From Marinicella meishanensis (GTDB lineage: Bacteria; Pseudomonadota; Gammaproteobacteria; Xanthomonadales; Marinicellaceae), in NCBI RefSeq assembly GCF_019931145.1, contig NZ_JAIOUV010000012.1, forward strand, positions 1 to 64,000: DNA of 64,000 nucleotides. The letters run 5' to 3'. A model generated the notes under the pieces. It searched no databases. It was given only the letters and a program-made list of their open reading frames with translations, and was not told the origin of the DNA. Every line of letters begins with the position of its first letter. The stretch's first letter is position 1. Both the position numbers and the translations under genes were made by a program. Shown piece after piece: positions 84-23,635 of the stretch.

Positions 84-244
84 CCACTACAATCTGATAT
101 TAAATAGGGCTTGATTTCATTAGAATCTTTATTTTTGTTGATTGTGGTTTTTTCCAAAATTTGATAAGTAACCTCGTTATTCCTAGGAATGCTGTTTTCG
201 AAAAATGGATCTGTTGATATTTTCATAAAAAAAGCTTTTCTTAA

Positions 245-275
245 AAAAAAGCCTGTGATTTCACAGGCTTTTTTT
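245..275. terminator. Bidirectional hairpin terminator, probably the original nrdB terminator
   Basis: An A-run is followed by the inverted repeat GCCTGTGA-TT-TCACAGGC and a T-run, which is a symmetrical intrinsic terminator. If the Tn7-like element (282-22363) is removed, this hairpin falls about 20 bp after the nrdB stop codon on the minus strand. It therefore most likely terminated nrdAB before the insertion. Confidence 0.85.
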
Positions 276-276
276 G

Positions 277-281
277 GATAT
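277..281. repeat. Left copy of 5-bp target site duplication (GATAT)
   Basis: GATAT directly precedes the left terminal repeat and recurs at 22364-22368 directly after the right terminal repeat. Five base pairs is the duplication length made by Tn7-family transposases. A 5-mer can match by chance, but here it coincides exactly with both terminal repeats. Confidence 0.8.
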
Positions 282-424
282 CCTGGCGCGTCGCGGCCAA
301 TGAGATTTTTGTTCTATATAAATCAATCGTTTACAAAAAGTCTCTTTAAAGTAAATGAGATTTAAAGTCACAATCGATGAGATTTATTCATTTTTACAGC
401 ACAGTTGTTGAGATTTTATGTCAC
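282..424 (+). repeat. Left transposon end with four TnsB-type sites
   Basis: Four copies of a TGAGATTT core, all in the same orientation, start at 301, 356, 378 and 409. Several are preceded by a (C/A)GTC-N-rich segment as at the right end. The sites are spread over about 140 bp, like the dispersed sites of the Tn7 left end. No gene is seen between 84 and 472: apart from the terminator and this end, 84-244 is AT-rich sequence with nothing recognised. Confidence 0.8.
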
Positions 425-739: not shown

Positions 740-3700
740 TTAATTAGGTATACAGACATTTTCTTTGGCAGGAGGACAGTCGCCACTACCTGAGCAAATG
801 TATATCATTAACCCATGTTCATGATCACCTTCAATCGTATGCTCTTCAAGCGTGGCGGCTTCAGCTGTAGGCACAAATACATTAGTATCAAAGATTAAAG
901 TCAAACCAACATCCAATGCGATTCCACCCAGTACATCAGAAATCTCTGCTGTAATCTCTCCAAGTGCTTTACCAGGATTTGCTCTCGAAAGTTTTAACAC
1001 CGGAAGCGCTCCTGAAATAAAACCTGCAACAAAGCCACTTACAGCTGAGCCAAAATCATCAGTTGCATTATATGTGGCAATTGCTTGCGTCAAACCAATC
1101 ACTAATCCGCCAACTACCCAATTTGCTATTTCACCATCATCATCACGGAAATTAACAGGGTCGTTAAAAACATATGTGTAAAGGTTTGAATCCTTACCGT
1201 TAAATAGAAGGGGATCTTTTGAGAGCCACCTACCTACATAAGGATCATATTCCCTCATACCAAATCGAGTTAAGCCTGTATCAGAATCATACAGACCTCC
1301 AGCAAATCCAAATGGTTGAAAACCTGGATTACTGTCGGAAATGATATTGCCCCAAACATCGTATGTGATTTCCTGTGCAACAACCCCTGTATCCACGTCA
1401 ATTACCATCCTAGGAGATCCAAGGTGATCACTGATAATTCTATAGGTAGAACCATTGTTTATCATATAACTTGGAACATTGGTTTTAGTTGCATAAATAA
1501 ACCTAGAAACAACAGAGCCAACATTATCTAATTCTGCTACAGGCTTTAACCCATCAAGATATAACCAGCCTTTAATCAGGTTTCCATTTAATGATTTTCC
1601 AACTCGTCTTCCCAGACCATCAAGTAAATACTGAACCTCAGTTGAATCAGGTAAAGTAACTGACCTTAACAATCCTTCTTCATCAAATGAATAGGATGTG
1701 ACATCAGCATTGTCAATTTTAGTTTCCAACTCTCCATTATTGTTATATGTGTAAGTGTATTGTTTATATGTTAATAGCCTATCTTGATCATCATATGTAG
1801 CAATCAAAACCCCATCTTCATGCGTCCTGTTTCCATTCGAATCATATTGCCATGACTTGTTAACAGCGCCATTTATCTTCACCTCATTTAGTCTTCCAGA
1901 TAAATCGTAGTCATAGTCATATGAAGTTATAAGTGAATCAATTGTTTCAACACTAGTATCTACTCTTCCGAGCTTGTCCATTGTGTAATCAATGTTAAAA
2001 ATTGAAGTAGAATTATATTGGACATCAAACAAATCAAGTTCAGCAAAGTCTGTATAAGTATTGCTAGTTACAACGTTATTGAGTGTTGTTCCATTGACCA
2101 TGCCACCCTTTTGAGTTTCTCTATTGATTGACATTGAGCCAGCATTAGTTAACAAATTATCATTATCATATTGATATAGAATTTCGTCAGCATCATTAAT
2201 CATTCTTCCGGTGACTCGGAACAAGTTGTCGTAGGTACGTGACACTTTTCCATTAATTGTTCCTGACCAAGTTGTTGATGTTGGAAGAAAACCATCATAC
2301 TCGTAAGCAATGTCAACTCCATCTGGTGAGGTTATTGAGCTCAACTTGCCAGAGACAGGGTCATATCCATAAACATAAGTACCAACGGACAGGGTTTTGG
2401 TTTCCATTTTTCCTGTGACACTGTTGTATGTGATGTTTACCTCTCTTCCATCAGGCGTCGTGATCTTTGTTAATTGCTGGTCAGTGTTATATTCCTTTCC
2501 AGTGGTGGCTGAAATTACACCAGCAACTAGCGGTGCTGAATAATTATTCAGTTGATCCACACCATTGTAACCAAAGTTGTGAGTTGGCCTTCCTGGCGGT
2601 GTTAAGCTAGACAGATTCCCATTTGCATCATAAGAAAATATCGCTTCTCTCGAGTCTGGAAAGATTTTTTTGGTGACTCGTCCATTGTTGTCATATTCAA
2701 ATGTTGAAACATGGCCCAAAGGATTTGTAATGGTGTGTACCTCACCATTCATTGGTCCACTATCGTAGTAAGAAAAAACTGTCTCTCTCAGTTCTTGCCC
2801 AGTTCCGGTGTACATCCTCTGAACTCGACCAAATCCATCATATTCAATGTTGTAATCATTAAATCCATTTAAAGCATAGCTAATGACTTTTTTGTTATTG
2901 TTAAGCAAAGTTAGATTGGTTCGTAACTCAGGAGTGATGTTTCTAAATCCACCATCACTACCGAAGCTTTGTTTGTATTCAGCTACCCAAGGTTGGTTTT
3001 CAACAATGGAAGTTCTCGAGTATTCTGGTACAGGTGTGATTACTGCCGGAGGGTTTCCATCATAGTCATTCGCAAAAACATTCCATGTATGTTTTCTTAA
3101 TCCTGATGGTGTAATAACTTCAATATCATTATCCCAGTGGTATTGAAAACCAAATCTAGAGCCTTTTGAATCTCCATTTCTGACTATGGTTCCATCTGGA
3201 TATGTGGTGACGTCCTTAATTGAGTCGTGGATTTTTTCTACATGCGAAATTACTGTGCCATCTGGCTTAGTGTTTTCAAGTAAAACATTTTGGCCTAAGT
3301 ATGGATATGAATCCTTAAGGAAAACATATTCACGACCTTCACCAGAAGTCATCACTACTTGATTGACACCTTCAGTATCTCCATCCGTAGAGATTAGCCA
3401 ACCTCCACCAATCGGATTGGCATCAGACTCTAATAGCCCAAATGATGAATAAGTGTAATCAAATCTATTTTCGTTTCTATCGATAAATAGATTTAATTGG
3501 TTATTAGTACTGTATCCAAGATCCCAATGATTTTGCTCAGGGTCAGTTACTTTTTGTAGTTGCCCATTGGGGTAATATTCGAGCTCGGTTCTTTTACCAT
3601 AAGAGGAAACGATTGCGTTTACATTAGTTCCAGAAGTTCTTTCTAATTGAGTAAGCAAGCCATTGGAGTCTCTTATGCTTGTTAGCCTTCCTGAGGCATC

Positions 3701-6700
3701 ATAATTAAATTCTTTGTAAACCCTGCCAGTTGTTGAATCAATTGTTCTTTGGTGAGCACCCTCGTCTGAAAACTCATATATCAACTTGCCATCTAACGAC
3801 ACGACAACCAATGAATCAGGTAAGAGTATTGATCCACCTCCAGCAATATTTTTTTCTTTCTGAGTCAAATATGACTCAATCGGAGCTGGTGGAGTTAATG
3901 TTTGTGAACCACCTGCAATCGTATCGATAATATTGTATTTATCAACTTTTCTGATGCGGTCATTTTTTGAGTCTGCAATTAATATCTCATCGAATTGGTT
4001 TAATGAAAAGTTTAGTGATGTATTCAGCTGAGCATTGTTTAACAGTCCACCATCTCCTGAAAATCCATGCAAGCTATCAAGTAAAACTTCAAATTGTCCA
4101 TAAGGGTGAACCCTGACAATTTTGTTTTGATCTCCTTGCCAATCATACATACTGTCTAGAATATAGATCGCACCGTTTGAATCAATGTCAACAGCTCTTG
4201 GTGCTGACTCAGGGATATGGCCTCCACCACCGTCCCCTCTGTTTAGTTCCTCATAAAAGCAATCAGTGCTTCCGTTCACAGTATATATCCACCCATCAGG
4301 TGTTATTTGTCTAACGCATTCGTGCCCAGTGTCAGCAACAAAAATTGAACCAGCATCAGAGATGACAATCCCACTTGCATTGAACATGGCAGTTTCAGTG
4401 GCGAGCACATTTTCGAAAACTGCTTCATCACCTGGGAAAAACTCTGACCCTCCAGCCACCGTTTGAATGTTACCATCTGAGTCTACTTTACGAATGCCCC
4501 AACCTACAGAAATGAAGAGTGTTCCATGTTTGTCAAAAGCAATGTATCTTGCTTCAACTTCAGCACTGGTTGCAGGTGTTCCATCAGGACTGCTACCGTA
4601 TGACCCATTCCCTGCTACTGTTGTGACAATACCATCTCGGTCTATTTTTCTTACCCTTCTATCGTAGACATAATATATGTCTCCATTGGGTGCGATTTTG
4701 ATGTCCTGGACACCAGTTAAACACACATCCAATGCTGACTCTTGTTCAATCGGTGTTTCATTACAGGATGGGAAAAACTCATGAATTCGTCCAGCGACTC
4801 TGACTGCATTTCCATCAACATCAATTTTAACTATGTGTCCTTTGTTCCGATCAGCAAAGTAGATTTCATCATTTGGTGCAACTTCAACTGCCCAGGTTTC
4901 GTCAATTTGAGAAATATCTGTTGGTCCTGGATGATTACTAACGTTTGGATTATCTACTTGAGCTCTGAACGCTTGAACTTTTCTCTTAAACCCATCACCC
5001 TTCAGAAGAACCCTTTGATACGTGTTGTAAACATGATGATCTTTTATGGCCCAACCACCAAGGTTTAATTGTTCTTCTCTAACAGCTTTTCTGTCCGCAG
5101 AATTACCAGCTCTGTTAACGTTGGAGTTTGCAAATGTATTGTACTTCCTATATAACTTAATTTTATTGTATCTCGAAACACGTAATTCAATTTCACTCCT
5201 TACTCGTGTATATAATGGATTCAGATTTAATTCCTCATAAACTCCAAAGGAGCGATCAAACTCAGCTTGAGATATACCAGGTGAATAGAGCAATGGAAAA
5301 TAATAATGCACATTGTAGGATGTGGTTTTTGAATGATAAGACCGGTCGTAATGATCTGTACCATCCCAAACATAGGTATAAGATAAATTTTCACTGGGTT
5401 CAAACTCTAACACCTCTCCGTCAATAACCAGTTCTACTCTCAATAATTCTGCCGGAACTGTATCTCCAATTAAAGGAATAACAAACTCGTCAAATCCTGA
5501 ACTTGGAAAGACAGAATTTGAACTGTAGTACAAACTGTGGTCAGTTCCAACAAGGGGTATTTCCTCTTCTAGTGTTCTGTTTTGAGCATTAATGATACAA
5601 CCAGTACAGTCTGTATTTAGTTCAAGGTCTTCAGGCTCATCTTCTGGTGAGTCATCTTCAACAATTTCTGGATTATCTTCAGGTTGTGGTTGTTCAGGTG
5701 GTTCTTGTAATGATGGTGGTGGGATGTAGGGCCAGTTAATGTCCCAAGGAGTAAAGTGGTTAACTGATGTTCGCCATAATGACTGACCCGCCTCATACAT
5801 TTGAGCCAATTGAGTTAATTCAGCATTTGTAATACCCAGCTCATCCAACTCAGCTTGTGTGGCATCATTTACAACATCATCATTAGTGACATCAAGCACC
5901 GCAGCTCCATTCTCAATTCTGTTGATTGAGATTACCAGTCCAGCTAACTCAGGAATCCAATAGGCGATTTGCCTGTCATAAGAGGCCAGGGGAGCTTTGG
6001 TACCTGTAGGAAATCCGATGAAATTTTCTAAATAAAGTTGAATGTTTTGGTCAAAATTTACACGAATGGCTTCTTGATTGATCGCTTCATCAAGTGAAAG
6101 CTCAACTGCATAAGTATAACCAGACGCTGGAGGTAAATGACTGGGCATTCTTTGCATTCCATATGAGCCTACAGTGAACTCTGTAGCACGAACGCTAATG
6201 TTTGAAATTGATTGAGTTGTGCCATCTTCAAACTCCAAACTTGCTTGTATTCCAGAAGGGAACAACATGGTTGCTTGCCTGCTGCCATCGCTATCAGTTA
6301 CTTCACTACCTCTTACAACCTGATAGTCATTTGTGGTGTCAGTAAGGTCTAGTCTGGTTACTTGATTATCTAATCTGACTAAGACAATATCTTCAGAATA
6401 TACGAAATCTTCCCATGGCGTTTGAATGTCTCTTTGAGAGGTAATAAATCCACCTTTAGTGAAGTTCACTGTTAAGGTGCCACCACCATTTACAACCAAA
6501 TCATATTCACCACTGCCTCTGGAGTAAGTGTAACCATACTCAGGATGATTGTTGATTGACACTTTCACACCTTGCAAGGGATTACCATCAGCATCCAATA
6601 CTCTACCTTTTACGATTGCGGCTCGATAATCCTGGATGGTATCTACTGTCATTCCTATTTGTACTGGTGGTACTGATTCATAGAGGAAATTGACAGTCTC

Positions 6701-8284
6701 TATGAAAGGTACAAAAGATGTTTTGCTCAAAGCTGGTGCAATATCATTTGGGTCGGGTGGTAGTTCAATAACCTCAATGGTGAACAACTGTGTATCAGTT
6801 CCACCAAAGCCATCATCAACGTTGACCTCGACTGAGAAGTTTCCAGCTGCATTAGGTGTCCATGTAATCAACCCGTTATTATCAATACTCATTCCTGATT
6901 CAGGATTAATCAGTTGGAAAGTAATGGGGTCACTATCAGCATCACTGACCACAACCTGATACGAGTAATCCAAGTCCTTCTCTGCACTGCTTATTGGAAA
7001 TGATTGAATTTGAGGTGCATTATTTACAGTTACGTCAATGTCATAGCTTTGGGAGTCTGTAGAGTTATACTCATCTGTCACAACAACGGTTACTGGATAT
7101 GTCCCTTCTCCCAGTGATTGCCAGGTCATCAGACCATTTGAGTCAATTGATGCGCCAGCAGGTGAGATTGATAAATCATAATCAAGGCTGTGATTTTCTG
7201 GGTCTGTTGCGACAACTTGATAGCTGTAAGCCTGAGACTCTCTGACAGTTGTATCTGGTGATGAAGTAATTGTGGGAGGTTGATTGACTGAGATTGTAAC
7301 CAAAGCGCTGTCTGGATCTGAGTCCAGACAGCCATCATTAACGATCAGCTGAGCCACATAATCGCCCACCAAATCAGGGGTCAGGCCAGCTTGCATTTGG
7401 TCGTCATTATCAATCACCGCTGTACTGCCATTTGGCGCAGTAAGTAATGACCAGGAGTAGGTCAGGGTATCCAGGTCAATATCACTGGAAAGTGAGCCAT
7501 CTAACTCAATGGCTTGGCCAATGACGCCCGTGGTATCCGGACCAACATCTGCAACTGGTGCTGTATTAGTGAATAAGCCCTCGAATCCATCAAAAAAGAT
7601 ACGATCAAGAACACAACCAAGTGCTCTGTTACTGCGATCAAAAAACTCAACTGCGTGGACTTTAAACAGATTACTTTTAATGATGTGCTTGTTGTCAGAA
7701 ACCTGAAGTCTGATGGAGTACTTTCCTGGTCTATCAGTGATTATCGTTGCGCTTTCGGAAGTGGGGTTTTGAATCTGGGCAGATGATCCCATTGGTGATT
7801 TTTCAAGATCCCAGAACATCAAGATATCATCACCATCTGGATCAAATGCATCTTGTATCTCCAATTCAGCAATTTCGCCAACCAGCACTTTCTGGTCTTC
7901 TATTTTGCTTAGTTGAGGTTTGGTTTGCTCGGTATCAATCAACAAAGTATCTGATGATGTCACGTGTAGCCCATCAGAAACCAAAAGCTCAATTGTGTAA
8001 GTGCCGGCTTTATCAAGAGATAGAAAAGTTGTGACATTATCATCATCCTGAACCTTGGCTAAACTCCCTTCAGGCCTCTCAATAATGATCCATTGATAGG
8101 AGAGTGGGTCACCATCTTTATCTGTCGAATTTGAGGCATTTAATTTTACTGTTTCATTGATGTTAGCAAACTGGTCAAAATGAGCATCAGCTTTTGGTGG
8201 GAACTGATTTTTGTCCAGTGCATCAGCACCTAATGATTGGAAAAGTAAAAATACACAGATGAAGGCAAGCGACTTTAAGTCCAT
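740..8284 (-). CDS. Giant secreted PKD/NHL/RHS-repeat protein, polymorphic-toxin-like
   Basis: The 2514-aa protein starts with a signal peptide (about residues 1-22). It continues with PKD/cadherin-like Ig domains (about 30-560), a short FFDGFE motif near 225, an acidic Pro-rich linker, a run of NHL-like propeller repeats (motifs such as GNIQTVAGG and ADTGHECVRQITPDG), then many YD repeats and the RHS core hallmark GMREYDPYVGRWLSKDP. After the core (ending DPVNFRDDDGE) comes a 129-residue Gly/Ala-rich hydrophobic tail with a His/Cys-containing end, which is the position of the toxin domain in RHS proteins. I do not recognise a catalytic fold in that tail. It has its own promoter (8318-8346) and AGGAG before the ATG. 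It is transposon cargo, and cell-surface display or secretion is expected. Confidence 0.9.
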   Translation of the reverse strand: MDLKSLAFICVFLLFQSLGADALDKNQFPPKADAHFDQFANINETVKLNASNSTDKDGDPLSYQWIIIERPEGSLAKVQDDDNVTTFLSLDKAGTYTIELLVSDGLHVTSSDTLLIDTEQTKPQLSKIEDQKVLVGEIAELEIQDAFDPDGDDILMFWDLEKSPMGSSAQIQNPTSESATIITDRPGKYSIRLQVSDNKHIIKSNLFKVHAVEFFDRSNRALGCVLDRIFFDGFEGLFTNTAPVADVGPDTTGVIGQAIELDGSLSSDIDLDTLTYSWSLLTAPNGSTAVIDNDDQMQAGLTPDLVGDYVAQLIVNDGCLDSDPDSALVTISVNQPPTITSSPDTTVRESQAYSYQVVATDPENHSLDYDLSISPAGASIDSNGLMTWQSLGEGTYPVTVVVTDEYNSTDSQSYDIDVTVNNAPQIQSFPISSAEKDLDYSYQVVVSDADSDPITFQLINPESGMSIDNNGLITWTPNAAGNFSVEVNVDDGFGGTDTQLFTIEVIELPPDPNDIAPALSKTSFVPFIETVNFLYESVPPVQIGMTVDTIQDYRAAIVKGRVLDADGNPLQGVKVSINNHPEYGYTYSRGSGEYDLVVNGGGTLTVNFTKGGFITSQRDIQTPWEDFVYSEDIVLVRLDNQVTRLDLTDTTNDYQVVRGSEVTDSDGSRQATMLFPSGIQASLEFEDGTTQSISNISVRATEFTVGSYGMQRMPSHLPPASGYTYAVELSLDEAINQEAIRVNFDQNIQLYLENFIGFPTGTKAPLASYDRQIAYWIPELAGLVISINRIENGAAVLDVTNDDVVNDATQAELDELGITNAELTQLAQMYEAGQSLWRTSVNHFTPWDINWPYIPPPSLQEPPEQPQPEDNPEIVEDDSPEDEPEDLELNTDCTGCIINAQNRTLEEEIPLVGTDHSLYYSSNSVFPSSGFDEFVIPLIGDTVPAELLRVELVIDGEVLEFEPSENLSYTYVWDGTDHYDRSYHSKTTSYNVHYYFPLLYSPGISQAEFDRSFGVYEELNLNPLYTRVRSEIELRVSRYNKIKLYRKYNTFANSNVNRAGNSADRKAVREEQLNLGGWAIKDHHVYNTYQRVLLKGDGFKRKVQAFRAQVDNPNVSNHPGPTDISQIDETWAVEVAPNDEIYFADRNKGHIVKIDVDGNAVRVAGRIHEFFPSCNETPIEQESALDVCLTGVQDIKIAPNGDIYYVYDRRVRKIDRDGIVTTVAGNGSYGSSPDGTPATSAEVEARYIAFDKHGTLFISVGWGIRKVDSDGNIQTVAGGSEFFPGDEAVFENVLATETAMFNASGIVISDAGSIFVADTGHECVRQITPDGWIYTVNGSTDCFYEELNRGDGGGGHIPESAPRAVDIDSNGAIYILDSMYDWQGDQNKIVRVHPYGQFEVLLDSLHGFSGDGGLLNNAQLNTSLNFSLNQFDEILIADSKNDRIRKVDKYNIIDTIAGGSQTLTPPAPIESYLTQKEKNIAGGGSILLPDSLVVVSLDGKLIYEFSDEGAHQRTIDSTTGRVYKEFNYDASGRLTSIRDSNGLLTQLERTSGTNVNAIVSSYGKRTELEYYPNGQLQKVTDPEQNHWDLGYSTNNQLNLFIDRNENRFDYTYSSFGLLESDANPIGGGWLISTDGDTEGVNQVVMTSGEGREYVFLKDSYPYLGQNVLLENTKPDGTVISHVEKIHDSIKDVTTYPDGTIVRNGDSKGSRFGFQYHWDNDIEVITPSGLRKHTWNVFANDYDGNPPAVITPVPEYSRTSIVENQPWVAEYKQSFGSDGGFRNITPELRTNLTLLNNNKKVISYALNGFNDYNIEYDGFGRVQRMYTGTGQELRETVFSYYDSGPMNGEVHTITNPLGHVSTFEYDNNGRVTKKIFPDSREAIFSYDANGNLSSLTPPGRPTHNFGYNGVDQLNNYSAPLVAGVISATTGKEYNTDQQLTKITTPDGREVNITYNSVTGKMETKTLSVGTYVYGYDPVSGKLSSITSPDGVDIAYEYDGFLPTSTTWSGTINGKVSRTYDNLFRVTGRMINDADEILYQYDNDNLLTNAGSMSINRETQKGGMVNGTTLNNVVTSNTYTDFAELDLFDVQYNSTSIFNIDYTMDKLGRVDTSVETIDSLITSYDYDYDLSGRLNEVKINGAVNKSWQYDSNGNRTHEDGVLIATYDDQDRLLTYKQYTYTYNNNGELETKIDNADVTSYSFDEEGLLRSVTLPDSTEVQYLLDGLGRRVGKSLNGNLIKGWLYLDGLKPVAELDNVGSVVSRFIYATKTNVPSYMINNGSTYRIISDHLGSPRMVIDVDTGVVAQEITYDVWGNIISDSNPGFQPFGFAGGLYDSDTGLTRFGMREYDPYVGRWLSKDPLLFNGKDSNLYTYVFNDPVNFRDDDGEIANWVVGGLVIGLTQAIATYNATDDFGSAVSGFVAGFISGALPVLKLSRANPGKALGEITAEISDVLGGIALDVGLTLIFDTNVFVPTAEAATLEEHTIEGDHEHGLMIYICSGSGDCPPAKENVCIPN

Positions 8285-8399: not shown

Positions 8400-9398
8400 T
8401 TAATGGCTCTTAGGTTTGTGAATTGTCATTGAAATGATGCCATCCTTGATTGTATAAACAGTGTTATCTTGGTCTCCTTTAATTTTTACATAGTTGTTAT
8501 CTTTGATACTGAAAAGTAGCTCGAGCTCTTTGCTGAGATTTTTTTCATCTAAAATGTTTGAAGGTAAATCAGTTGAATCGATAACATACCTAAGCTCCTT
8601 TCCTCCTCCCATATTTAATTCATTCAATAAGTATTTGCCAACAAATGAGCCTGAAAGGTTTCTCATAGAAAAAACCAACATGGTTACCATGACAACCATT
8701 AAAAAAACTTTAAACCGAAATTGTGACTCTTTAACAATTGACAGGAAATGCAAGATAAGTAGATAGATAAGTATAGGCACTAAAAATATGTCTGGGTTGG
8801 GAGTGAGCTTCATCAGTATCAGACCTGAAACTCCAACTAAGAAAAAAAACCAGAAAAATGCAAAAATCATAACTCCAAACATATTTTTAAAATAAGTTTT
8901 AGGTGATATGTTGCTTATGCGATGACACTTTTTATATGTTAGAAAGTTTAAAGTTAAGCTGGCAGTAATGAACAATGAAGAAATGACAATGTAATAAATG
9001 TTGCTATCTACAATCAGAATAAGTGTTGTAACTGGTAAGACTGCTATGAGGCCAAGGTATTTGTAGATCCGTTTAAGAATTGACTCATCATCACTGATGC
9101 CGATGGCTTTTCTGAATTCCTGGTCAAATCTTTTGGGTATGAAAAAAGCAGGCAATGTGATGTAAAGATACAGGGATCCATTTAGTAATAATGAATAGAA
9201 GGTGGTTATTAAAAACAATGCGTACAGATTAATATCTAGTGGAAATGGAATTCCATATTCAGACAAGTAGTTATTGACTGTGTTGAAGCCGATCACCATA
9301 GCAAATATGGTGATCGGGAGGATGTAATCTTTGATGTTCTTGGTCAGTTCGAAAAACTTATTAACAGACAGTTCAATTGGGGTTTTAGTATTATCCAT
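8400..9398 (-). CDS. Multi-spanning membrane protein, last gene of the tns operon
   Basis: This 332-aa protein of no recognised family has about seven hydrophobic segments between residues 18 and 250 and a roughly 80-residue hydrophilic C-terminal domain rich in Lys, Asp and Glu. Its ATG overlaps the 3' end of tniQ by 8 nt, the same overlap seen between tnsC and tniQ, which indicates translational coupling and a role tied to the transposition operon or to cargo upkeep. No membrane protein is a standard component of Tn7 transposition, so the function is unknown. Confidence 0.85.
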   Translation of the reverse strand: MDNTKTPIELSVNKFFELTKNIKDYILPITIFAMVIGFNTVNNYLSEYGIPFPLDINLYALFLITTFYSLLLNGSLYLYITLPAFFIPKRFDQEFRKAIGISDDESILKRIYKYLGLIAVLPVTTLILIVDSNIYYIVISSLFITASLTLNFLTYKKCHRISNISPKTYFKNMFGVMIFAFFWFFFLVGVSGLILMKLTPNPDIFLVPILIYLLILHFLSIVKESQFRFKVFLMVVMVTMLVFSMRNLSGSFVGKYLLNELNMGGGKELRYVIDSTDLPSNILDEKNLSKELELLFSIKDNNYVKIKGDQDNTVYTIKDGIISMTIHKPKSH

Positions 9399-11532
9399 GG
9401 TTCACTCTCTTAAAACTAAATTCATTATTGTACACAAGGTTTTTCACATCTGTTATTGAGTAAAACTTAGTTTTAATGCGTTCATTACCTAGAATCTTTG
9501 CGGCCTTTATTTTGCCAAGCCGTTCTTGATTGGGAAGAAAAGTTCGGTTGGTATTTGTTAATTTGCCGCCTTCCTCTGAAGTAATGAACTCACTTTTGAA
9601 TTTCTTAATTCTGTTGAGGTCGTCTTTACTGATAAACTTCATGAAACCAACATCAATCAAACGAACGTAATCAGTATTGATCCAACGCTTATAGAATGCT
9701 TGTATTGATTCACCAGTTACTTTACTGGCTTGTGAAATTTCAACCGTTTCTTTTGAATTCAATACCTCAAGGATGTGGTTTAGAGATTTTTTAGTTATTC
9801 TTAGCTCTCTTTTAGTATTTTTAAGTTCTTTTAGGGTGCCAGTTGATAACAGCCCCAGTACTTTGCTGTTTGAGATATTGAGTTTTTCACTTACTTGTAT
9901 GATTGAAACTGAGTCAGTGCATTCAACCTTCTCTCGATCACCTGTTTTTCTACCAGTACGGGTTTCATAATCAGAAAGGTTGGCCAGATCTTTGAAGTTA
10001 ATCTGTCTTATATCCTTTCTATTAAATACATAAGTTAGACCGCCATCAATATCTGGCCCCGAAATTGGCCGAATCCCAAGTGACATTATTTTTTCTGAAA
10101 TATTTGTGTGGTTTAGGCCATGCTGTTTGGCAAGCACGCCAGCAAATACATAGCTTTTATTGAATGCTTTGGCCACTTTTTCATCAATGAAAATTGTGTT
10201 GCCTTTTGTCTTTTTGGGGTCAACTTTTTTTATGACTCCTGCATGTATGGCAAATCTAATATTTTCATAATGAACTTGGCATAAATCAGCCACATCATTA
10301 ATTCGTAAAAATTTACTATTAACTTTTATTAGAACTTTTTCAACATATGCACTAAGAATACCTTCTCTGTTATTCATAGCCTGAAAGTTGATTTTCTTAT
10401 TTGCTATCTGTTTTATCGTTTCAATAAAGTTACCTCTAACATTATGTTTGTGAGATATCTTTTCTAATTTGATTTTGTTTTTCAGAGTACCGTTACCTTT
10501 TGATAAATACTTGAGTAACCGATTTACAGAATTTGCTTGTATTTGCCACGGCTGATTGTTTATCCTTTCATCAGCTTTAATCACTTGATGATCAATTAAT
10601 TGTTTAACAAGAATGTATGAAATACCGAGCACCGATGAGGTTTCTATCATTCCAAGCGGTCTTGAAAAGTCAAAGCTATCTTTTGTGTTAATGTGACTAT
10701 TTGCACTCTTTATAACTTTGAGGGATGTGTCATTCAAAACTCTAACTTTTGAATTGAGTAGTGAGGTTAAGCTCAGTCTTGGATGAACACCATTTGACCT
10801 CATGGCTTTATGAACGGCATGTTTCAATTTTGATTCAAATTTCTTTGGAAACTTAGTCGCTAAATATGCCTGGAATGACAAATCATATTCACTCAGTGTG
10901 ATTCCGTTGAAATGATAAAATTCACTGAGAGCATCAATAAGAGTTGTGAAAAGCTGAAGTTTCTCAGAGTCATAGTTACTGAATAAATCTTCAATAAAGA
11001 AAGCATAACTATCAGGTACTTTTGGGGAGTCGGTGACATTAAATTCTTCACCACAATTGCATTTATTTAAGTTGTTTCTTTTCCAATTGATCTTGCTACC
11101 ACAGGCTTGGCAATAGTCAATCAGTGGTACTTTATGTTTGTAACAAATATGAATAGATCGATGGTCCCAAATTGATTGAGCATAACCATCTTCTTTAAGG
11201 CAATGCGGACAAATCGAGGTTGTAGTTACTCTCAAGTCATTTTTAAGAACCCGCAATCCTTTAAAGTTAACATAAACTTTTTTGTTTTTAACTGGTTCCG
11301 ATAAGTAAAAGCCTTTTTGTTCTACCTTATTTATACCGATGGTTTGTAGTACATGCGACCAGTGTTCATAACTTGTCACAATTTTGTCCAGACTGGTCTT
11401 CCAGTCGTAGATATGACTACCGGCTAAAAACTGAGCAATTCCTTGCCACCCATTTGTTTCTGATGCCCGTAGTAGATAGCCTATAGGAGATTCATCCTGT
11501 TGGATTATTGGTTTAATAATTAAATTACGCAT
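9391..11532 (-). CDS. TniQ/TnsD-family target-selection protein with extended C-terminal DNA-binding region
   Basis: This 713-aa protein matches the TniQ/TnsD pattern. An N-terminal segment (PIGYLLRAS near residue 16) is followed by zinc-binding Cys/His groups at C108-x2-C111, C130-x2-H133, C141-x2-C144 and C158-x-C160. Beyond residue 290 there are four or more short modules that read like helix-turn-helix or excisionase-type units (about 290-350, 415-530, 555-605, 610-665). TnsD proteins bind a fixed chromosomal site and recruit TnsC. This is the only TniQ protein in the element, and no CRISPR array is present, so it is the likely reader of the nrdB site. It overlaps tnsC by 8 nt and has an AGGGGG ribosome site. 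Confidence 0.9.
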   Translation of the reverse strand: MRNLIIKPIIQQDESPIGYLLRASETNGWQGIAQFLAGSHIYDWKTSLDKIVTSYEHWSHVLQTIGINKVEQKGFYLSEPVKNKKVYVNFKGLRVLKNDLRVTTTSICPHCLKEDGYAQSIWDHRSIHICYKHKVPLIDYCQACGSKINWKRNNLNKCNCGEEFNVTDSPKVPDSYAFFIEDLFSNYDSEKLQLFTTLIDALSEFYHFNGITLSEYDLSFQAYLATKFPKKFESKLKHAVHKAMRSNGVHPRLSLTSLLNSKVRVLNDTSLKVIKSANSHINTKDSFDFSRPLGMIETSSVLGISYILVKQLIDHQVIKADERINNQPWQIQANSVNRLLKYLSKGNGTLKNKIKLEKISHKHNVRGNFIETIKQIANKKINFQAMNNREGILSAYVEKVLIKVNSKFLRINDVADLCQVHYENIRFAIHAGVIKKVDPKKTKGNTIFIDEKVAKAFNKSYVFAGVLAKQHGLNHTNISEKIMSLGIRPISGPDIDGGLTYVFNRKDIRQINFKDLANLSDYETRTGRKTGDREKVECTDSVSIIQVSEKLNISNSKVLGLLSTGTLKELKNTKRELRITKKSLNHILEVLNSKETVEISQASKVTGESIQAFYKRWINTDYVRLIDVGFMKFISKDDLNRIKKFKSEFITSEEGGKLTNTNRTFLPNQERLGKIKAAKILGNERIKTKFYSITDVKNLVYNNEFSFKRVNHG

Positions 11533-12490
11533 ACATACCCCCTGAGATTTTGTTTATGCTTTTTACTAAATCAGAATGATTTAAACGGAAAGGGTTAGTG
11601 GATAAACTGTCACTATTAGGGAGCGCTAAAGTATCGAAAGCTTTTGTAATGTGATTATATTTAACCTCGTTCATACCGTCTTCAAAAGCTATTAATGTGG
11701 CTTCTTTGAAAATCCTCACAATGCTACTTGGGTTTCCACTTGTAGCCACATACAAAGGTGCACACTTTGAATATGAATTGAAATTTGGAAACCCATTCAA
11801 GCCAATTTTTTTAATAAAAAGTGTCCTTAATGTTGAAGAAAACTTTGTTAACTCGCCTCGTTTTTGAGGTGTGCCCAGGTTTAATGAGGTCAACTGAGTT
11901 CGATATTGAAAACGCCTTGATAGCTGCGTTTCTTCATTGATTATGGTTTCACATTCTGGTGTTCCGACCAAAACAATAGGAACTTTAAACTCATTAATGA
12001 TTGATTTAACCCAATCTCTAACGTCATTACTTTTTCCAAAGTCTTTAGCCAATAAGTGCTGGAATTCATCCAAAATAATTACTTTGGTTTTAAACTCTTT
12101 AAGTAAAACGCCCAGTCTATAAGTCAAATCAAGGGCACTGCCTTTGCCAGGTGAAGGGGCCCCCAGAGATTTAAGCATTGAAGAAGCTATTCCCTTGATG
12201 GTAACTGGGTTAGGTACAAGAGAATAAAATGCATTAACTACTGGCACCTCTTTGTTGTCACGAATAATGAATTCTTGTGATTCAGATTCGAGTATCGATA
12301 AAATTGCATTGCAAACAGTTGTTTTGCCGGTTCCCGCTGGGCCTGTAAGCAAAAAATTAACAGGTTCTAGGGCAGATTCAGATATAAGTAAACACCTTTG
12401 AATCATGTCTATAGCCAATTTGATTTTTTGATGTGGAATGTATGTATGATCAATGGCATTTATCTTTTGGTAAATTTCAGGATTTAACAT
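11525..12490 (-). CDS. tnsC: TnsC/TniB-family AAA+ ATPase transposition regulator
   Basis: With the chosen start the protein has 321 residues. Walker A GPAGTGKTT lies at about 50-58, Walker B IILDEFQH at about 138-145, a sensor-like LVGTPE near 175, and SRRFQYR near 192 fits an arginine finger. TnsC forms ATP-dependent filaments on DNA and links the target protein (TniQ) to the TnsAB transposase. I chose the ATG at 12490, one base after the tnsB stop and behind GGAG; a frame opening at 12565 would add 25 Met/Ser-rich residues overlapping tnsB and is unlikely. Confidence 0.93.
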   Translation of the reverse strand: MLNPEIYQKINAIDHTYIPHQKIKLAIDMIQRCLLISESALEPVNFLLTGPAGTGKTTVCNAILSILESESQEFIIRDNKEVPVVNAFYSLVPNPVTIKGIASSMLKSLGAPSPGKGSALDLTYRLGVLLKEFKTKVIILDEFQHLLAKDFGKSNDVRDWVKSIINEFKVPIVLVGTPECETIINEETQLSRRFQYRTQLTSLNLGTPQKRGELTKFSSTLRTLFIKKIGLNGFPNFNSYSKCAPLYVATSGNPSSIVRIFKEATLIAFEDGMNEVKYNHITKAFDTLALPNSDSLSTNPFRLNHSDLVKSINKISGGMYA

Positions 12491-12491
12491 T

Positions 12492-14435
12492 TCAGAACTC
12501 CACTGCTTCATATTGTTCATCATCGTCATCATCGTCAGTATTCGGCTCAATGAACGACTCGTCATGAGTTTTAAATTCCGTTATAAATAACTCTGGAGAT
12601 ATTGAATTATCCTCATGCTCTTTGATAATAGAGTTATCTTGTTCTTGATTTTTGGCTGACTCCTTTAATCGAGCAATTTGCTTAGCTGCATACTTGTCAC
12701 CCATGACAATTAAGTCTTGTCTGAATTTCCAACGTGCGATAGCAAGAGCATATTGATCCAGTTTTGCAAGGTCTTTTTTACCTCGTGATTTAAGTTTCTC
12801 CTGTATTTTGTTGTGTTCAAATAGGCTTAGATTTCTTGTGTATTTAGGAGTGGTTGAATCAGCTTGAATAAAAACACCGTCATCATCAGGATCACGGATA
12901 AAAACTCGATCCAGGTTCAATGTATCTACATAAACATGAACCATGGGGTTCTTATTCTTGTTACGAAACTTGTGCTCAATGGTTTTTAGAGCGTGAGAAA
13001 ACCATGAAAGATTAAAAGCTTTGATTCGTCCCCCGTTTATCGTTCTTGTGTAAACATTTCTTGCTATTTGATCAATATCTTTATAATCATATTGAACAAT
13101 GGGCGTTTTTTTCTTGCTCTCATCCCATAGAGCTTCAGGAGTACGGCCATGACCACGGTGAAGGGTTTTATGATAGTAAATGTCTAACCATTCTTTAAAT
13201 TTGTTTTTAAGCTCATCTAGGGTAAAACAAGCATATTTTTCTGATTTGTAATCACCCCTCTTGGTCGGACTTTCAAAAGTTGTACCTCTTAAAGTGTGTA
13301 AAAATTGACAATTAACTCTACCAAAGAATCGTTCAACATTGGGTTTGGAATCAGGATCTCTGGGGGAACCAAACTCAATCATAATTCCTAGATGATTACA
13401 GAAGTTTTTTAGAGATTTACTGGTGTAATCTGAACCATTGTCAACACATAGCTTTTCAAACAAGCCCCCAAATGTAGAGTAGCTGCTACTCACCGCCAGT
13501 TTCATTGCTTGAAGAATTGTGGCCGCAGAAAATGGATCCATGGTTATTACTGCAGAAATCACACATCTAGAGTAGTGATCAATCAGGATTGTTGCATATG
13601 GCCTTCCGACCACTTCGCCAGTATCAGGGTCAACAACCAATACATCCAGCAAGCTACCATCGGCTTGCACGCTTTCCAGTATCCGTTCGGTGTAGATACT
13701 CCTGCCAGCAGCTTTAAAGGCTTTTTTGGCAGCATACTTACCGCGTCTTGTTTTGGTTCTTATGTAAGGATCAATTTTGGCAATTCTTCGTTCAATTGTG
13801 CTTAGAGATGGAATGCTTAACCCTGAAGGAATTGAATTAGAATCACCATATTCAGATAAGATTTGAGAAACGATATTTTCATGAACATGTTTCATGGTGA
13901 CTTGTTGATCGGTTAGATAATCTTCCTTAATCCTTTGATTAACAATTTGCTCAATTTCAGGGTCAAACTTCAAAGGCATTATTCCCCGGCGTGAGAAGTT
14001 AGGGGCCAGGGAAACCGGGTCATATTTCGACTCCACATAGCTTTTTGCCCAACGTGCAAAAGTCGAAAATGCTGGTGGGTTCTTATCATTAATTGTGTTT
14101 GAGTATACAGCCAGAATAGGTTCGACTATGGTTGCAGAACGGCAAGAATCAGTTTCATTGAACACGTATCTGATGTACCTTAAACGTCTGTTCATTTCTT
14201 TGATTTGATTTTCTGTTAGATTTGATGGGTTGGGTTTTTCAGTTTTTTGTTGTTTGATTATTTTTATTTGGCCATCTCGCTGAAGGGATAAAAACTTGTC
14301 TTTGGACAATGTGAAAACATTACCCCCAGCAATTCTTGCGGCTCTTAATTCATTTGGACCAATGAATACAAGTTCATGTTCATATCCATGGACTGCAAAA
14401 TGATCTCCAACGCTCATCTCAAAAATAGATTTCAT
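12492..14435 (-). CDS. tnsB: TnsB-type DDE transposase
   Basis: In this 647-aa protein the retroviral-integrase-like catalytic core carries D259 (QADGS), D332 (VDNGSDY) and E368 (NVERFFG), a DD(35)E triad. N-terminal helix-turn-helix regions precede it (about 70-230). The C-terminus ends in an acidic tail with a run of Asp residues, as expected for the part of TnsB that contacts TnsC. TnsB binds the end repeats (TGAGATTT arrays) and carries out 3'-end cleavage and strand transfer. Its ATG overlaps the tnsA stop by 4 nt (ATGA) behind GGAGATG. Confidence 0.95.
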   Translation of the reverse strand: MKSIFEMSVGDHFAVHGYEHELVFIGPNELRAARIAGGNVFTLSKDKFLSLQRDGQIKIIKQQKTEKPNPSNLTENQIKEMNRRLRYIRYVFNETDSCRSATIVEPILAVYSNTINDKNPPAFSTFARWAKSYVESKYDPVSLAPNFSRRGIMPLKFDPEIEQIVNQRIKEDYLTDQQVTMKHVHENIVSQILSEYGDSNSIPSGLSIPSLSTIERRIAKIDPYIRTKTRRGKYAAKKAFKAAGRSIYTERILESVQADGSLLDVLVVDPDTGEVVGRPYATILIDHYSRCVISAVITMDPFSAATILQAMKLAVSSSYSTFGGLFEKLCVDNGSDYTSKSLKNFCNHLGIMIEFGSPRDPDSKPNVERFFGRVNCQFLHTLRGTTFESPTKRGDYKSEKYACFTLDELKNKFKEWLDIYYHKTLHRGHGRTPEALWDESKKKTPIVQYDYKDIDQIARNVYTRTINGGRIKAFNLSWFSHALKTIEHKFRNKNKNPMVHVYVDTLNLDRVFIRDPDDDGVFIQADSTTPKYTRNLSLFEHNKIQEKLKSRGKKDLAKLDQYALAIARWKFRQDLIVMGDKYAAKQIARLKESAKNQEQDNSIIKEHEDNSISPELFITEFKTHDESFIEPNTDDDDDDEQYEAVEF

Positions 14436-15145
14436 GCTTCATCTCCTATTGTCCAGACAAGTGATTTTTCATTTAAGGGTAGTTGGGTTTCAAACTGAAC
14501 ATGACCTTGAAAAATTGCCCAATCTGCAATTAAAGGATTAAGTCCATGTTCCATGCAGTCATTACGAAATTCATGAAGTGAGCAACCAGTGCCCTTTGTA
14601 TCTATAATCGATAATGCTTCATTGATTTGTAGTTGATGGAACTTCAGGCGCGCACTGCGATATAGGTACTTTCTATTTTGGCAGTCGGGAAAAAGATTCA
14701 GTACTTTCTCAGTGACCACTTCAAACCTAAAGCCTGCCGTAGCAAATATTGAAGTGATTTTGGTAAGACGGTCATTAAGTTTTCTGGACTCAAGTGAGCC
14801 TGAGAACTTAACTTCTCTAAAAGTGTATTCTCCATTTTCATCAGCCATCACCACATCCGGTGTATAGCTTTGTTTGCGGTTTAATCGAAGAGTCAATGGT
14901 TGTGTACGGTAACTCAGGGTAGTCTTCTCAAACTCGATTGCAAGGCAGTGCTCCGCCTCAAGCTTGCTCTCACATGGCATCAAAGATTGGTTCTTTACAC
15001 TGGGGAACAAAACTGTGTTTTTATTGGGGAGTCCTTTCCAGATTTTACGATTTCCATATTGCATCCCTTCGATTGGATCCTGACTGAATATAGTGGCTAG
15101 CTTTTGATGGACATCCTGGATATCAATGATTTCGATTGGGTTCAT
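14432..15145 (-). CDS. tnsA: TnsA-type endonuclease (5'-strand cleavage)
   Basis: The 237-aa product has the restriction-endonuclease-like signature of TnsA: acidic residues around E63-E65 (SKLEAEH), D97 in YTPDVVM, and E111-V-K113 in FREVKFSG. A C-terminal helical region follows. TnsA cuts the 5' ends so that the element moves by cut-and-paste; its presence separates this system from TniABQ-only elements. The start has AGGAGG nine bases upstream and overlaps the 42-aa leader ORF by 4 nt. Confidence 0.92.
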   Translation of the reverse strand: MNPIEIIDIQDVHQKLATIFSQDPIEGMQYGNRKIWKGLPNKNTVLFPSVKNQSLMPCESKLEAEHCLAIEFEKTTLSYRTQPLTLRLNRKQSYTPDVVMADENGEYTFREVKFSGSLESRKLNDRLTKITSIFATAGFRFEVVTEKVLNLFPDCQNRKYLYRSARLKFHQLQINEALSIIDTKGTGCSLHEFRNDCMEHGLNPLIADWAIFQGHVQFETQLPLNEKSLVWTIGDEA

Positions 15146-22163: not shown

Positions 22164-22293
22164 CGAGGACAGCCACTCCTCTCTGGAAAATATCATTAGG
22201 TCTCATCAGTAATTTGCCAATGCTAATTGCTTATGGTGGAATCACTAAACATATGTCCAAAAAAAGGCCCTGCAATATAATACAAAGCCTATT

Positions 22294-22363
22294 AATCTCA
22301 TTGAGTTTGACGTTAAAATCTCACTTACTTTGACGTAAATCTCAATGATCTTGACGCATCAGG
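22294..22363 (-). repeat. Right transposon end with three closely packed TnsB-type sites
   Basis: Read on the minus strand, three units of the form CGTCAA-N6-TGAGATT lie in tandem, their TGAGATT cores at 22344-22337, 22323-22316 and 22300-22294 (spacing about 21-22 bp). They are inverted relative to the left-end sites. The packed layout resembles the Tn7 right end, which in Tn7 also faces the target gene. Confidence 0.82.
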
Positions 22364-22368
22364 GATAT
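22364..22368. repeat. Right copy of 5-bp target site duplication (GATAT)
   Basis: GATAT follows the right terminal CAGG and matches 277-281. It lies 13 bp after the nrdB stop codon. Confidence 0.8.
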
Positions 22369-22381
22369 TCAAAGATTTAAA

Positions 22382-23635
22382 TCAATCCCAACTCAAAGCC
22401 CCGCCGGTCTGGTATTCAGTCACTCGGGTCTCGAAGAAGTTCTTTTCTTTTCTGAGGTTGGATTGTTCGTCGAGCCAGGGAAGGGTGCATTCGGCGCCGG
22501 GGAAGGGTTCGTCGATGCCGAGTTGTCTGGCTCTTCTGTTGGCGATGTAGCGGAATTGTTCGATGTGGTCTTCGGCTGAGTAGCCGAGGATCGGGCGGCG
22601 CAGCAGGTATTTGGCGTAGCCGGCTTCGGCGGCTTCGGATTCGTCCCACATGTGGCGGATCTTGGCCGGGTCGAGGGTGATTTTTTCTTCTTCGATGATT
22701 TGTTTGCACACGCGGATGCCGAAGGAGGCGTGCATCACTTCGTCGCGCATGATGTATTGCAGCTGTTCGGCGGTGCCTTTCATCAGGCCGCGGCGTTGCA
22801 GGGCGAAGATCGGGCTGAAGCCGTTGTAGAACCAGCAGCCTTCGAAGATGGCGCCGAAGAACATGTAGGCCAGCACGAAGTTTTCCATTTCATCCGGATC
22901 GTTCAGATCGATGTTGGGGCGCAGGATGCTGTTCAGGCGGCGGTTGGCCACTTGGATTTTTTGGTTGATCTCGGGGACCACGCGGTAGCGGTTGTAGATT
23001 TCGCCTTGGTCCAGGCCAATGGTCTCGATGCAGTGCTGGTAGGTCCAGGTGTGCAGCGCTTCTTCATACACTTGGCGGGCTTGGTAAATCTGTAATTCGG
23101 GCGCCGACATTTTTTCCATCACCGCCAGGCCGATGTTGCGCATCGCCAGGATGTCCGAGGTGGTCAGGTAGGACAGCACGTTTTGGTAGACGTGTTTTTC
23201 GTCTTCGGTGAGGGTCTTGTTGTAGTCGATCACGTCCTGGGTCATGTTGATGTCCAGGGGCGTCCAGTGGTTTTTGTTGGCGTTCAGGAAGAACTTCCAG
23301 GCCCAGGGGTATTTGAACGGGGCCAGTTGGTTCACATCGGTCAGGCCGTTGATCACGCGCTTGTCTTCGGCGCGCACGGGCTCAACACCGGTCAAAGCAT
23401 TTTGGTGGGTGTTTTCTGGTGTGACATTCAATGGTTCAGCCGGCGCTTGGTCGGCTTGGTAGGCCACCGCCGCTTCTTTGACTTGGGCCGGTTCATCCTC
23501 TGATTTTGCTTTGGGCCGGGCCACACTGGCGGTGGCTTTGCTGGCTTCTTTCTCAGCGGGTTCTGGTTTGACCACCGGGGCTTTTTTCTCTTCTTGCTTG
23601 TCGCCCAGGCCGAGTGGATCGTCCCAATTCATCAT
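22382..23635 (-). CDS. nrdB: Class I ribonucleotide reductase, beta subunit
   Basis: The 417-aa protein holds the diiron-tyrosyl radical cofactor that starts nucleotide reduction by NrdA. Visible ligands include D in TTSDILAMRN, E and H in EEALHTWTYQH with the radical Tyr four residues after the His, E in EGCWFYNGF, and E/H in RDEVMHASFG. The C-terminal tail ending TEYQTGGALSWD is the segment that binds NrdA. The first ~90 residues are an Ala/Pro/Lys/Glu-rich, probably disordered extension not usual for NrdB. GGAG stands before the ATG pair. The Tn7-like element lies 13 bp after the stop and separates the gene from its terminator. Confidence 0.95.
   Translation of the reverse strand: MMNWDDPLGLGDKQEEKKAPVVKPEPAEKEASKATASVARPKAKSEDEPAQVKEAAVAYQADQAPAEPLNVTPENTHQNALTGVEPVRAEDKRVINGLTDVNQLAPFKYPWAWKFFLNANKNHWTPLDINMTQDVIDYNKTLTEDEKHVYQNVLSYLTTSDILAMRNIGLAVMEKMSAPELQIYQARQVYEEALHTWTYQHCIETIGLDQGEIYNRYRVVPEINQKIQVANRRLNSILRPNIDLNDPDEMENFVLAYMFFGAIFEGCWFYNGFSPIFALQRRGLMKGTAEQLQYIMRDEVMHASFGIRVCKQIIEEEKITLDPAKIRHMWDESEAAEAGYAKYLLRRPILGYSAEDHIEQFRYIANRRARQLGIDEPFPGAECTLPWLDEQSNLRKEKNFFETRVTEYQTGGALSWD

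Follow-up and report, generated by a model that had tools for sequence, protein, structure and literature searches.

The window, i.e., the whole stretch of 64,000 nucleotides that was analysed, starts at a contig end and harbors, in its first 22 kb, an AT-rich element lying next to the 3' end of nrdB (Table 1). The GC content per 1-kb bin is 0.33–0.44 up to 22 kb and 0.49–0.58 thereafter. The genes tnsA, tnsB, tnsC and tniQ form a single run on the minus strand. The products of tnsC and tniQ score above the curated Pfam cut-offs, and those of tnsA and tnsB score below the cut-offs of their best families (Pfam and NCBIfam), their identity being backed by gene order and by relatives. With a tnsA-tnsB-tnsC core accompanied by tniQ, unequal inverted arrays at its ends and a 5-bp duplication, this region is a complete Tn7-like element. 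No Cas family was found with Pfam among the 12 element proteins scanned, and no CRISPR array among the 20 largest of at least 60 direct-repeat families of positions 1–24,000.

Table 1. Features of the element and of the adjoining nrdB gene; positions are those of the window.
Feature	Position	Strand	Basis
Whole Tn7-like element, 22,082 bp	282–22363		inverted ends CCTGG.../CCTGATG..., flanking GATAT duplication, GC step
5-bp target duplication GATAT, left copy	277–281	+	sequence
5-bp target duplication GATAT, right copy	22364–22368	+	sequence
Left end; TGAGATT repeats at 301, 356, 378, 409	282–415	+	repeat positions
Right end, nrdB side; TGAGATT repeats at 22294, 22317, 22338	22294–22363	-	repeat positions
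Cargo gene at left end, 2514-aa RHS/teneurin-like protein with PKD and Ig-like domains	740–8284	-	Pfam
tniQ, 713 aa, proposed nrdB reader	9391–11532	-	Pfam, alignments, relatives
tnsC/tniB, AAA ATPase	11525–12565	-	PF05621 E 3.7e-27
tnsB, DDE transposase	12492–14435	-	rve E 1.4e-7 and IS481-type E 1.4e-21, both below curated cut-offs
tnsA, endonuclease	14432–15145	-	TnsA_like E 2.5e-8, below cut-off; PF08722 E 1.1e-5, 0.1 bit below cut-off
nrdB, class I ribonucleotide reductase beta subunit, target gene	22382–23635	-	NCBIfam, sequence
Putative recognition sequence: 63-nt tail of nrdB, up to the TGG codon (KEKNFFETRVTEYQTGGALSW)	22388–22450	-	codon positions 1 and 2 conserved, 16 loci
Probable native terminator of nrdB, displaced; hairpin gcctgtgatttcacaggc flanked by A and T runs	243–275	-	sequence; loci judged empty
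Terminator-like hairpin inside right end, read from nrdB	22257–22290	-	no equal among 60 crude shuffles

At the left junction, GATAT adjoins the terminal CCTGG, and the right end begins with CCTGATG when read in the sense of nrdB; the two ends are thus inverted repeats of the form CCTGRYGCGTC. The TGAGATT repeats, predicted to be TnsB sites, are packed at the right end (three copies, steps of 23 and 21) and spread at the left one (four copies, steps of 55, 22 and 31), forming arrays that are unequal and inverted as in Tn7-like transposons. Since nrdB lies on the minus strand, its 3' end faces the element, and the tighter array stands on its side, as was expected in the original prediction. The right end had also been placed 13 bp after the nrdB stop; this distance holds if GATAT is counted to the element, as 13 bp separate the stop from the duplication, and the last base of the element proper lies 18 bp past the stop. 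A terminal TGT...ACA is the usual, though not universal, mark of Tn7-like transposons. The TGT is absent from the window element, whose termini are CCTG in contrast to the TGT of Tn7, and from the related element of G019, a genome of the same family, which ends with CGTA; the right end in G205, G762 and G766 does begin with TGT.

The element sits between the nrdB stop codon and the probable former nrdB terminator, which is now located on the far side of the element. Twenty nrdB loci of the family that have the usual tail were judged by eye as occupied (6) or empty (14); G007, whose NrdB-like locus lacks the tail, the loci outside the family and the second NrdB-like matches of G009, G016, G003 and G015 were left out of this comparison, and the G024 flank was used in the terminator scan only. 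In 13 of the 14 loci judged empty, a terminator-like hairpin begins 19–37 bases past the stop; the remaining locus (G003) also shows such a hairpin on visual inspection, although its best scan score lies further downstream. Within the window element, another hairpin with a T run stands about 90 bases from the nrdB stop. The original prediction, in which the right end lies close to the terminator, is thus corrected in that the likely native terminator of nrdB has been displaced from the gene.

The scan, whose control was a crude two-letter block shuffle (60 shuffles) and not a true dinucleotide shuffle, disclosed a terminator within 300 bp in 11 of the 16 occupied loci, with 0 or 1 of 60 shuffles as good (the window, G017, G016, G006, G019, A. 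baumannii, G205, G762, G766, G794 and G839), and none within the same distance in G012, G776, G072 and G853. Since the hairpin precedes the end-like repeats in G839 and, weakly, in G838, these two loci were set aside, so that a hairpin inside the right end is counted in 10 of 14 occupied loci, belonging to all groups, three of the ten (G205, G762 and G766) being one element. Such right-end hairpins may replace the host terminator.

The target gene is recognized by NCBIfam as ribonucleotide-diphosphate reductase subunit beta (E 8e-106, over the cut-off), and its product ends with KEKNFFETRVTEYQTGGALSWD. Over the last 63 bases up to the TGG codon, the 16 loci taken as occupied show no variation at 19 of 21 first codon positions and at 19 of 21 second ones, and at 1 of 21 third positions; it is the wobble that varies. 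The NrdB proteins of the A. baumannii and G205 hosts are only 38% identical to that of the window and have the same tail nonetheless. Any reader of this DNA would thus have to tolerate wobble. However, the conservation may be due to the NrdB protein alone; since this would also explain the codon pattern, the latter is consistent with recognition rather than a proof of it. As a separate observation made by eye, the nrdB 3' tail seems to recur in degenerate form just inside the right end of G072 (L062:14838–14900).

The TniQ protein of the window contains a PF06527 TniQ domain (residues 6–137), invariant Cys and His residues at 108–160 and, in its C-terminal half, HTH_17 stretches (PF12728, best at 544–589); an N-terminal TniQ domain, a C-terminal predicted DNA-binding region and a length above 400 aa are traits of the TnsD type. 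Two such HTH_17 stretches were counted in the window protein, three in G019, four in A. baumannii and three in G762, these being the four TniQ proteins scanned. Among solved structures, the relatives retrieved by sequence are nine TniQ entries and, weakly, TnsD (8v32, E 4e-5), all of them through the N-terminal part, one further short match being unrelated. With a mean pLDDT of 53.5, the AlphaFold model is of low quality overall; it is best at about residues 540–660 and shows a strand-helix-helix pattern that is repeated. The motif P[VI]SGPxIDG, seen in five TniQ proteins and considered as an nrdB-specific marker, was dropped as it is absent in G776 and G794.

The gene adjoining TniQ homologs was tabulated, as had been suggested together with the original prediction. 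Relatives were retrieved with a protein profile, nrdB not being a criterion and being mapped only afterwards. The first profile was used on 369 genomes of the class (E 1e-15) and on 398 genomes of the order (E 1e-12), a wider profile on the orders of G205 (27 genomes) and G072 (85 genomes), and the TniQ protein itself as query on the family (33 genomes) and on plasmid records. Of the six further genomes matched in the class and order scans with the first profile, whose choice did not depend on known nrdB-linked cases, three (G019, G205 and G072) carry the element at nrdB and one (G380) does not; in the remaining two (G633 and G720), the match is confined to the N-terminal domain. Altogether, a TniQ match was found in 16 genomes, that of the window included, and it covers at least 500 model positions in 13. 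In 10 of these 13 (the window, G019, G205, G762, G766, G776, G072, G839, G838 and G853), nrdB is located upstream of tniQ on the same contig and strand, a count that may favour nrdB-linked kin, as the nrdB linkage of G205 and G072 was already known when the orders for the wider profile were picked. The gap between the two genes is 3.9 kb in G205, G762 and G766, 10–11 kb in G019, G776 and the window, 22–23 kb in G839 and G072, and 54–56 kb in G838 and G853. By kinship, the ten genomes span three orders (those of the window, of G205 and of G072), Acinetobacter being counted separately.

Fifteen plasmid records gave a match and five were examined, i.e., four from A. baumannii, at nrdB, and one Acinetobacter plasmid (L071), which contains pieces of a relative and no nrdB in the 30 kb examined. 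Each of the four A. baumannii records that contain most of the element shows it at nrdB; since their nrdB and tnsA proteins are identical, they were counted once. In A. baumannii VB1190 (CP040048.1), nrdA and nrdB, separated by a small gene, are followed by cargo and then by the core genes, and the products annotated as endonuclease, transposase, transposase and excisionase are the matches to tnsA, tnsB, tnsC and tniQ. With A. baumannii added, 11 of 14 long TniQ relatives are at nrdB in one orientation, one is elsewhere and two are split across contigs; recurrence at one conserved gene in one orientation is a further trait of the TnsD type. Instead of the many unrelated neighbouring genes that would speak against a dedicated site, there is one clear exception, G380 at lexA, nrdB being on another contig in G807 and G794. 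Single-protein searches of genome contigs gave no match, and the query A1 matched G019 alone. A search for the TniB family was rejected as a count, since it matched all 23 genomes and also 13 of 14 control genomes.

The spacing varies: the window element lies 18 bp beyond the nrdB stop, other elements 10–20 bp beyond it wherever their ends can be placed, and those of G838 and G839 farther away. In G019, a second complete element is located 11 bp past nrdB and is flanked by the duplication TGCCG; its TnsA, TnsB and TnsC share 46, 50 and 54% identity with those of the window, and its TniQ 33%. End repeats past the nrdB stop were recognized by eye at 11 bp in G019 and at about 12 bp in A. baumannii, and also in G853 and G776. 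In G072, CTGGATTTGCC repeats follow nrdB, and like repeats, inverted, follow tniQ. The weakest linked cases are G838 and G839, where repeat-like sequence begins only past the terminator-like hairpin. The cleanest evidence of movement is provided by the identity profile of G205, G762 and G766, which bear one and the same element: on the nrdB side the three are 92–99% identical per bin, and the next 22 bins of 250 bases, i.e., the first 5.5 kb inward from the terminus TGTGAAGTGACG, are 100% identical, with 20, 12 and 13 bp, respectively, between stop and terminus. From nrdB to the end of the G205 tniQ, no genes other than tnsA, tnsB, tnsC and tniQ are found in G205 or, judging by identity, in G762; left ends and duplications were looked for in the three genomes and were not found. 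In G017, G016, G012 and G006, end-like sequences were seen by eye 10–11 bp past nrdB, and the family search disclosed no relative of the window TniQ in these four genomes; such flanks are possible remnants, or elements with lost cores.

Some relatives do not fit this scheme. The TniQ of G380 matches over its whole length (25%), yet it is not at nrdB, and no NrdB was matched in that genome at E 0.001. Three AATCTC repeats (L059:1805, 1827 and 1848, in a region extending to 1854) form an end about 90 bp upstream of lexA, beyond which an impB/mucB-type polymerase gene is located, and a motif search revealed no repeats of the G019 type; this Tn7-like right end (L059:1805–1946) possibly marks another attachment site. 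In the draft genomes G807 and G794, tniQ and nrdB are on different contigs; the nrdB flank of G794 shows an end of the G776 type and a cargo-like island, and no end was found within the 860 bp present in that of G807. G720, G633 and G821 match in the N-terminal domain only and show no linkage to nrdB. A tree of 15 TniQ proteins, from which G766 (near-identical to G762) and G821 were left out, places G380 among the nrdB-linked proteins with low support, and the nrdB label requires four changes, as low as in 278 of 500 shuffles, i.e., it is not clustered beyond chance. On the basis of this unclustered label and of the poorly supported placement, an old homing to nrdB with a single retargeting in G380 is only possible.

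Taken as a whole, these data make it very probable, in our judgement, that the 3' end of nrdB is the attachment site for the window element and for a deep set of related ones, with TniQ working as TnsD. In the mechanism proposed, the C-terminal helix-turn-helix modules of the long TniQ would recognize the conserved 3' coding end of nrdB, TnsC would be recruited by the N-terminal TniQ domain, and TnsA and TnsB would insert the element in one orientation, mostly 10–20 bp past the stop, keeping the nrdB frame intact and yielding the 5-bp duplication. Directly observed are the position, the orientation, the duplication in two elements, the displaced terminator and the recurrence at nrdB in unrelated hosts, whereas the reading of the nrdB DNA by TniQ itself, and the bases that it would read, are what we infer. 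The nrdB 3' region might also be the site and yet be read by a partner other than TniQ, such as a TnsF-like factor or a guide RNA, TniQ being an adaptor; TnsF does read comM for Tn6022, with TniQ as a hub (PMC10293859), and the window element has several further genes that have no assigned role. However, G205 shows no other protein gene from nrdB to the end of tniQ, where its contig ends, and TniQ has HTH_17 stretches of its own; as for a guide RNA, the ten left-hand window proteins scanned contain no Cas family and the repeat families inspected no array. We thus hold a partner reader to be improbable.

It might be argued that insertions are undirected and that the flank of an essential gene is merely a tolerant zone in which survivors are seen. 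An insertion between stop and terminator would probably do no harm, the spacing varies by several bp, and the nrdB linkage is scattered on the TniQ tree; nevertheless, gene, side and orientation are identical in 11 of 11 linked cases, belonging to three orders and to Acinetobacter, and the spacing stays at 10–20 bp wherever an end can be placed, so that this possibility appears very unlikely. Even less credit, close to none, is given to the idea that the window element has simply been inherited, its adjacency to nrdB dating from one old insertion. It is supported by G017, of the same genus, whose right end at nrdB is nearly identical; against it, the duplications (GATAT vs. TGCCG) and the spacing (18 vs. 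11 bp) differ, 14 loci of the same family are judged empty, and the identity changes abruptly at the terminus in G205, G762 and G766.

The closest known system is Tn7, whose TnsD site at glmS is a 36-bp stretch in the coding end, with variation at the wobble positions and insertion about 20 bp past the stop (PMC2918618). The window element resembles Tn7 at attTn7 in having TnsABC with a TniQ-domain selector, one orientation and insertion past the stop of an essential gene; the use of the coding end of the target gene as the signal, wobble being tolerated, is described for glmS (PMC2918618) and is here proposed for nrdB. Unlike Tn7, the target is nrdB and not glmS, and the selector is 713 aa long vs. 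507 aa for TnsD. Similar Tn7-family elements with 5-bp duplications and cargo islands are Tn6171, Tn6552 and Tn6553 of Acinetobacter; Tn6553 is located at glmS and the other two are said to target it (PMC9605922), whereas nrdB is the site of the relative detected here in A. baumannii. The same core machinery combined with a different conserved gene is also known for Tn7-like elements at parE, tRNA genes, yhiN and comM (PMC11406308).

The sites listed in a 2024 review are glmS, yhiN, comM, parE, tRNA genes, guaC, yciA, ffs and rsmJ; nrdB appears neither in its text nor in its Table 1 (PMC11406308), and nrd genes are not mentioned in the main texts of two surveys (PMC10293859 and PMC8649781). 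A paper on Vibrio cholerae SOS genes contains both nrdB and Tn7 (PMC5963079). No description of nrdB as a Tn7-like target was found in the literature searched, a partial set of papers, so that a prior mention is possible; to this extent, the statement that nrdB is not a described target of the family agrees with what was checked. The nrdB end thus appears to be a landing site that these papers do not describe, probably read by the element's own targeting protein.

If so, nrdB would extend the few sites listed for Tn7-like elements (PMC11406308), its end would join attTn7 as a natural safe harbour at an essential gene, and the site would predict the location of such cargo islands in other genomes. 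Divergent TniQ proteins with one common target might also be a source for the DNA-reading rules of TnsD-type proteins, G380, at another site, being the member for comparison. A broader view, on which we are evenly divided, is that nrdB is an old and widespread protein-read site, a second glmS, whose tail codons would be read by TniQs with HTH arrays that ignore the wobble, many of the elements carrying their own terminator within the right end as a substitute for the displaced one of the host.

Some minor observations concern the neighbourhood of the related elements. In G019 (L036:17100–17240), the left end is directly adjoined by a further right end, as would be expected after a tandem insertion at nrdB, and in A. 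baumannii (L069, about 24.3 kb), a fragment resembling a right end follows the left end, the duplication being unreadable there. Similar cargo pairs related to ubiquitin-like machinery are located in G019 (L036:635–4070) and in G807 (L113:9349–12990), each consisting of a protein with no Pfam match beside one with Prok-E2_A, ThiF and Prok-JAB domains.
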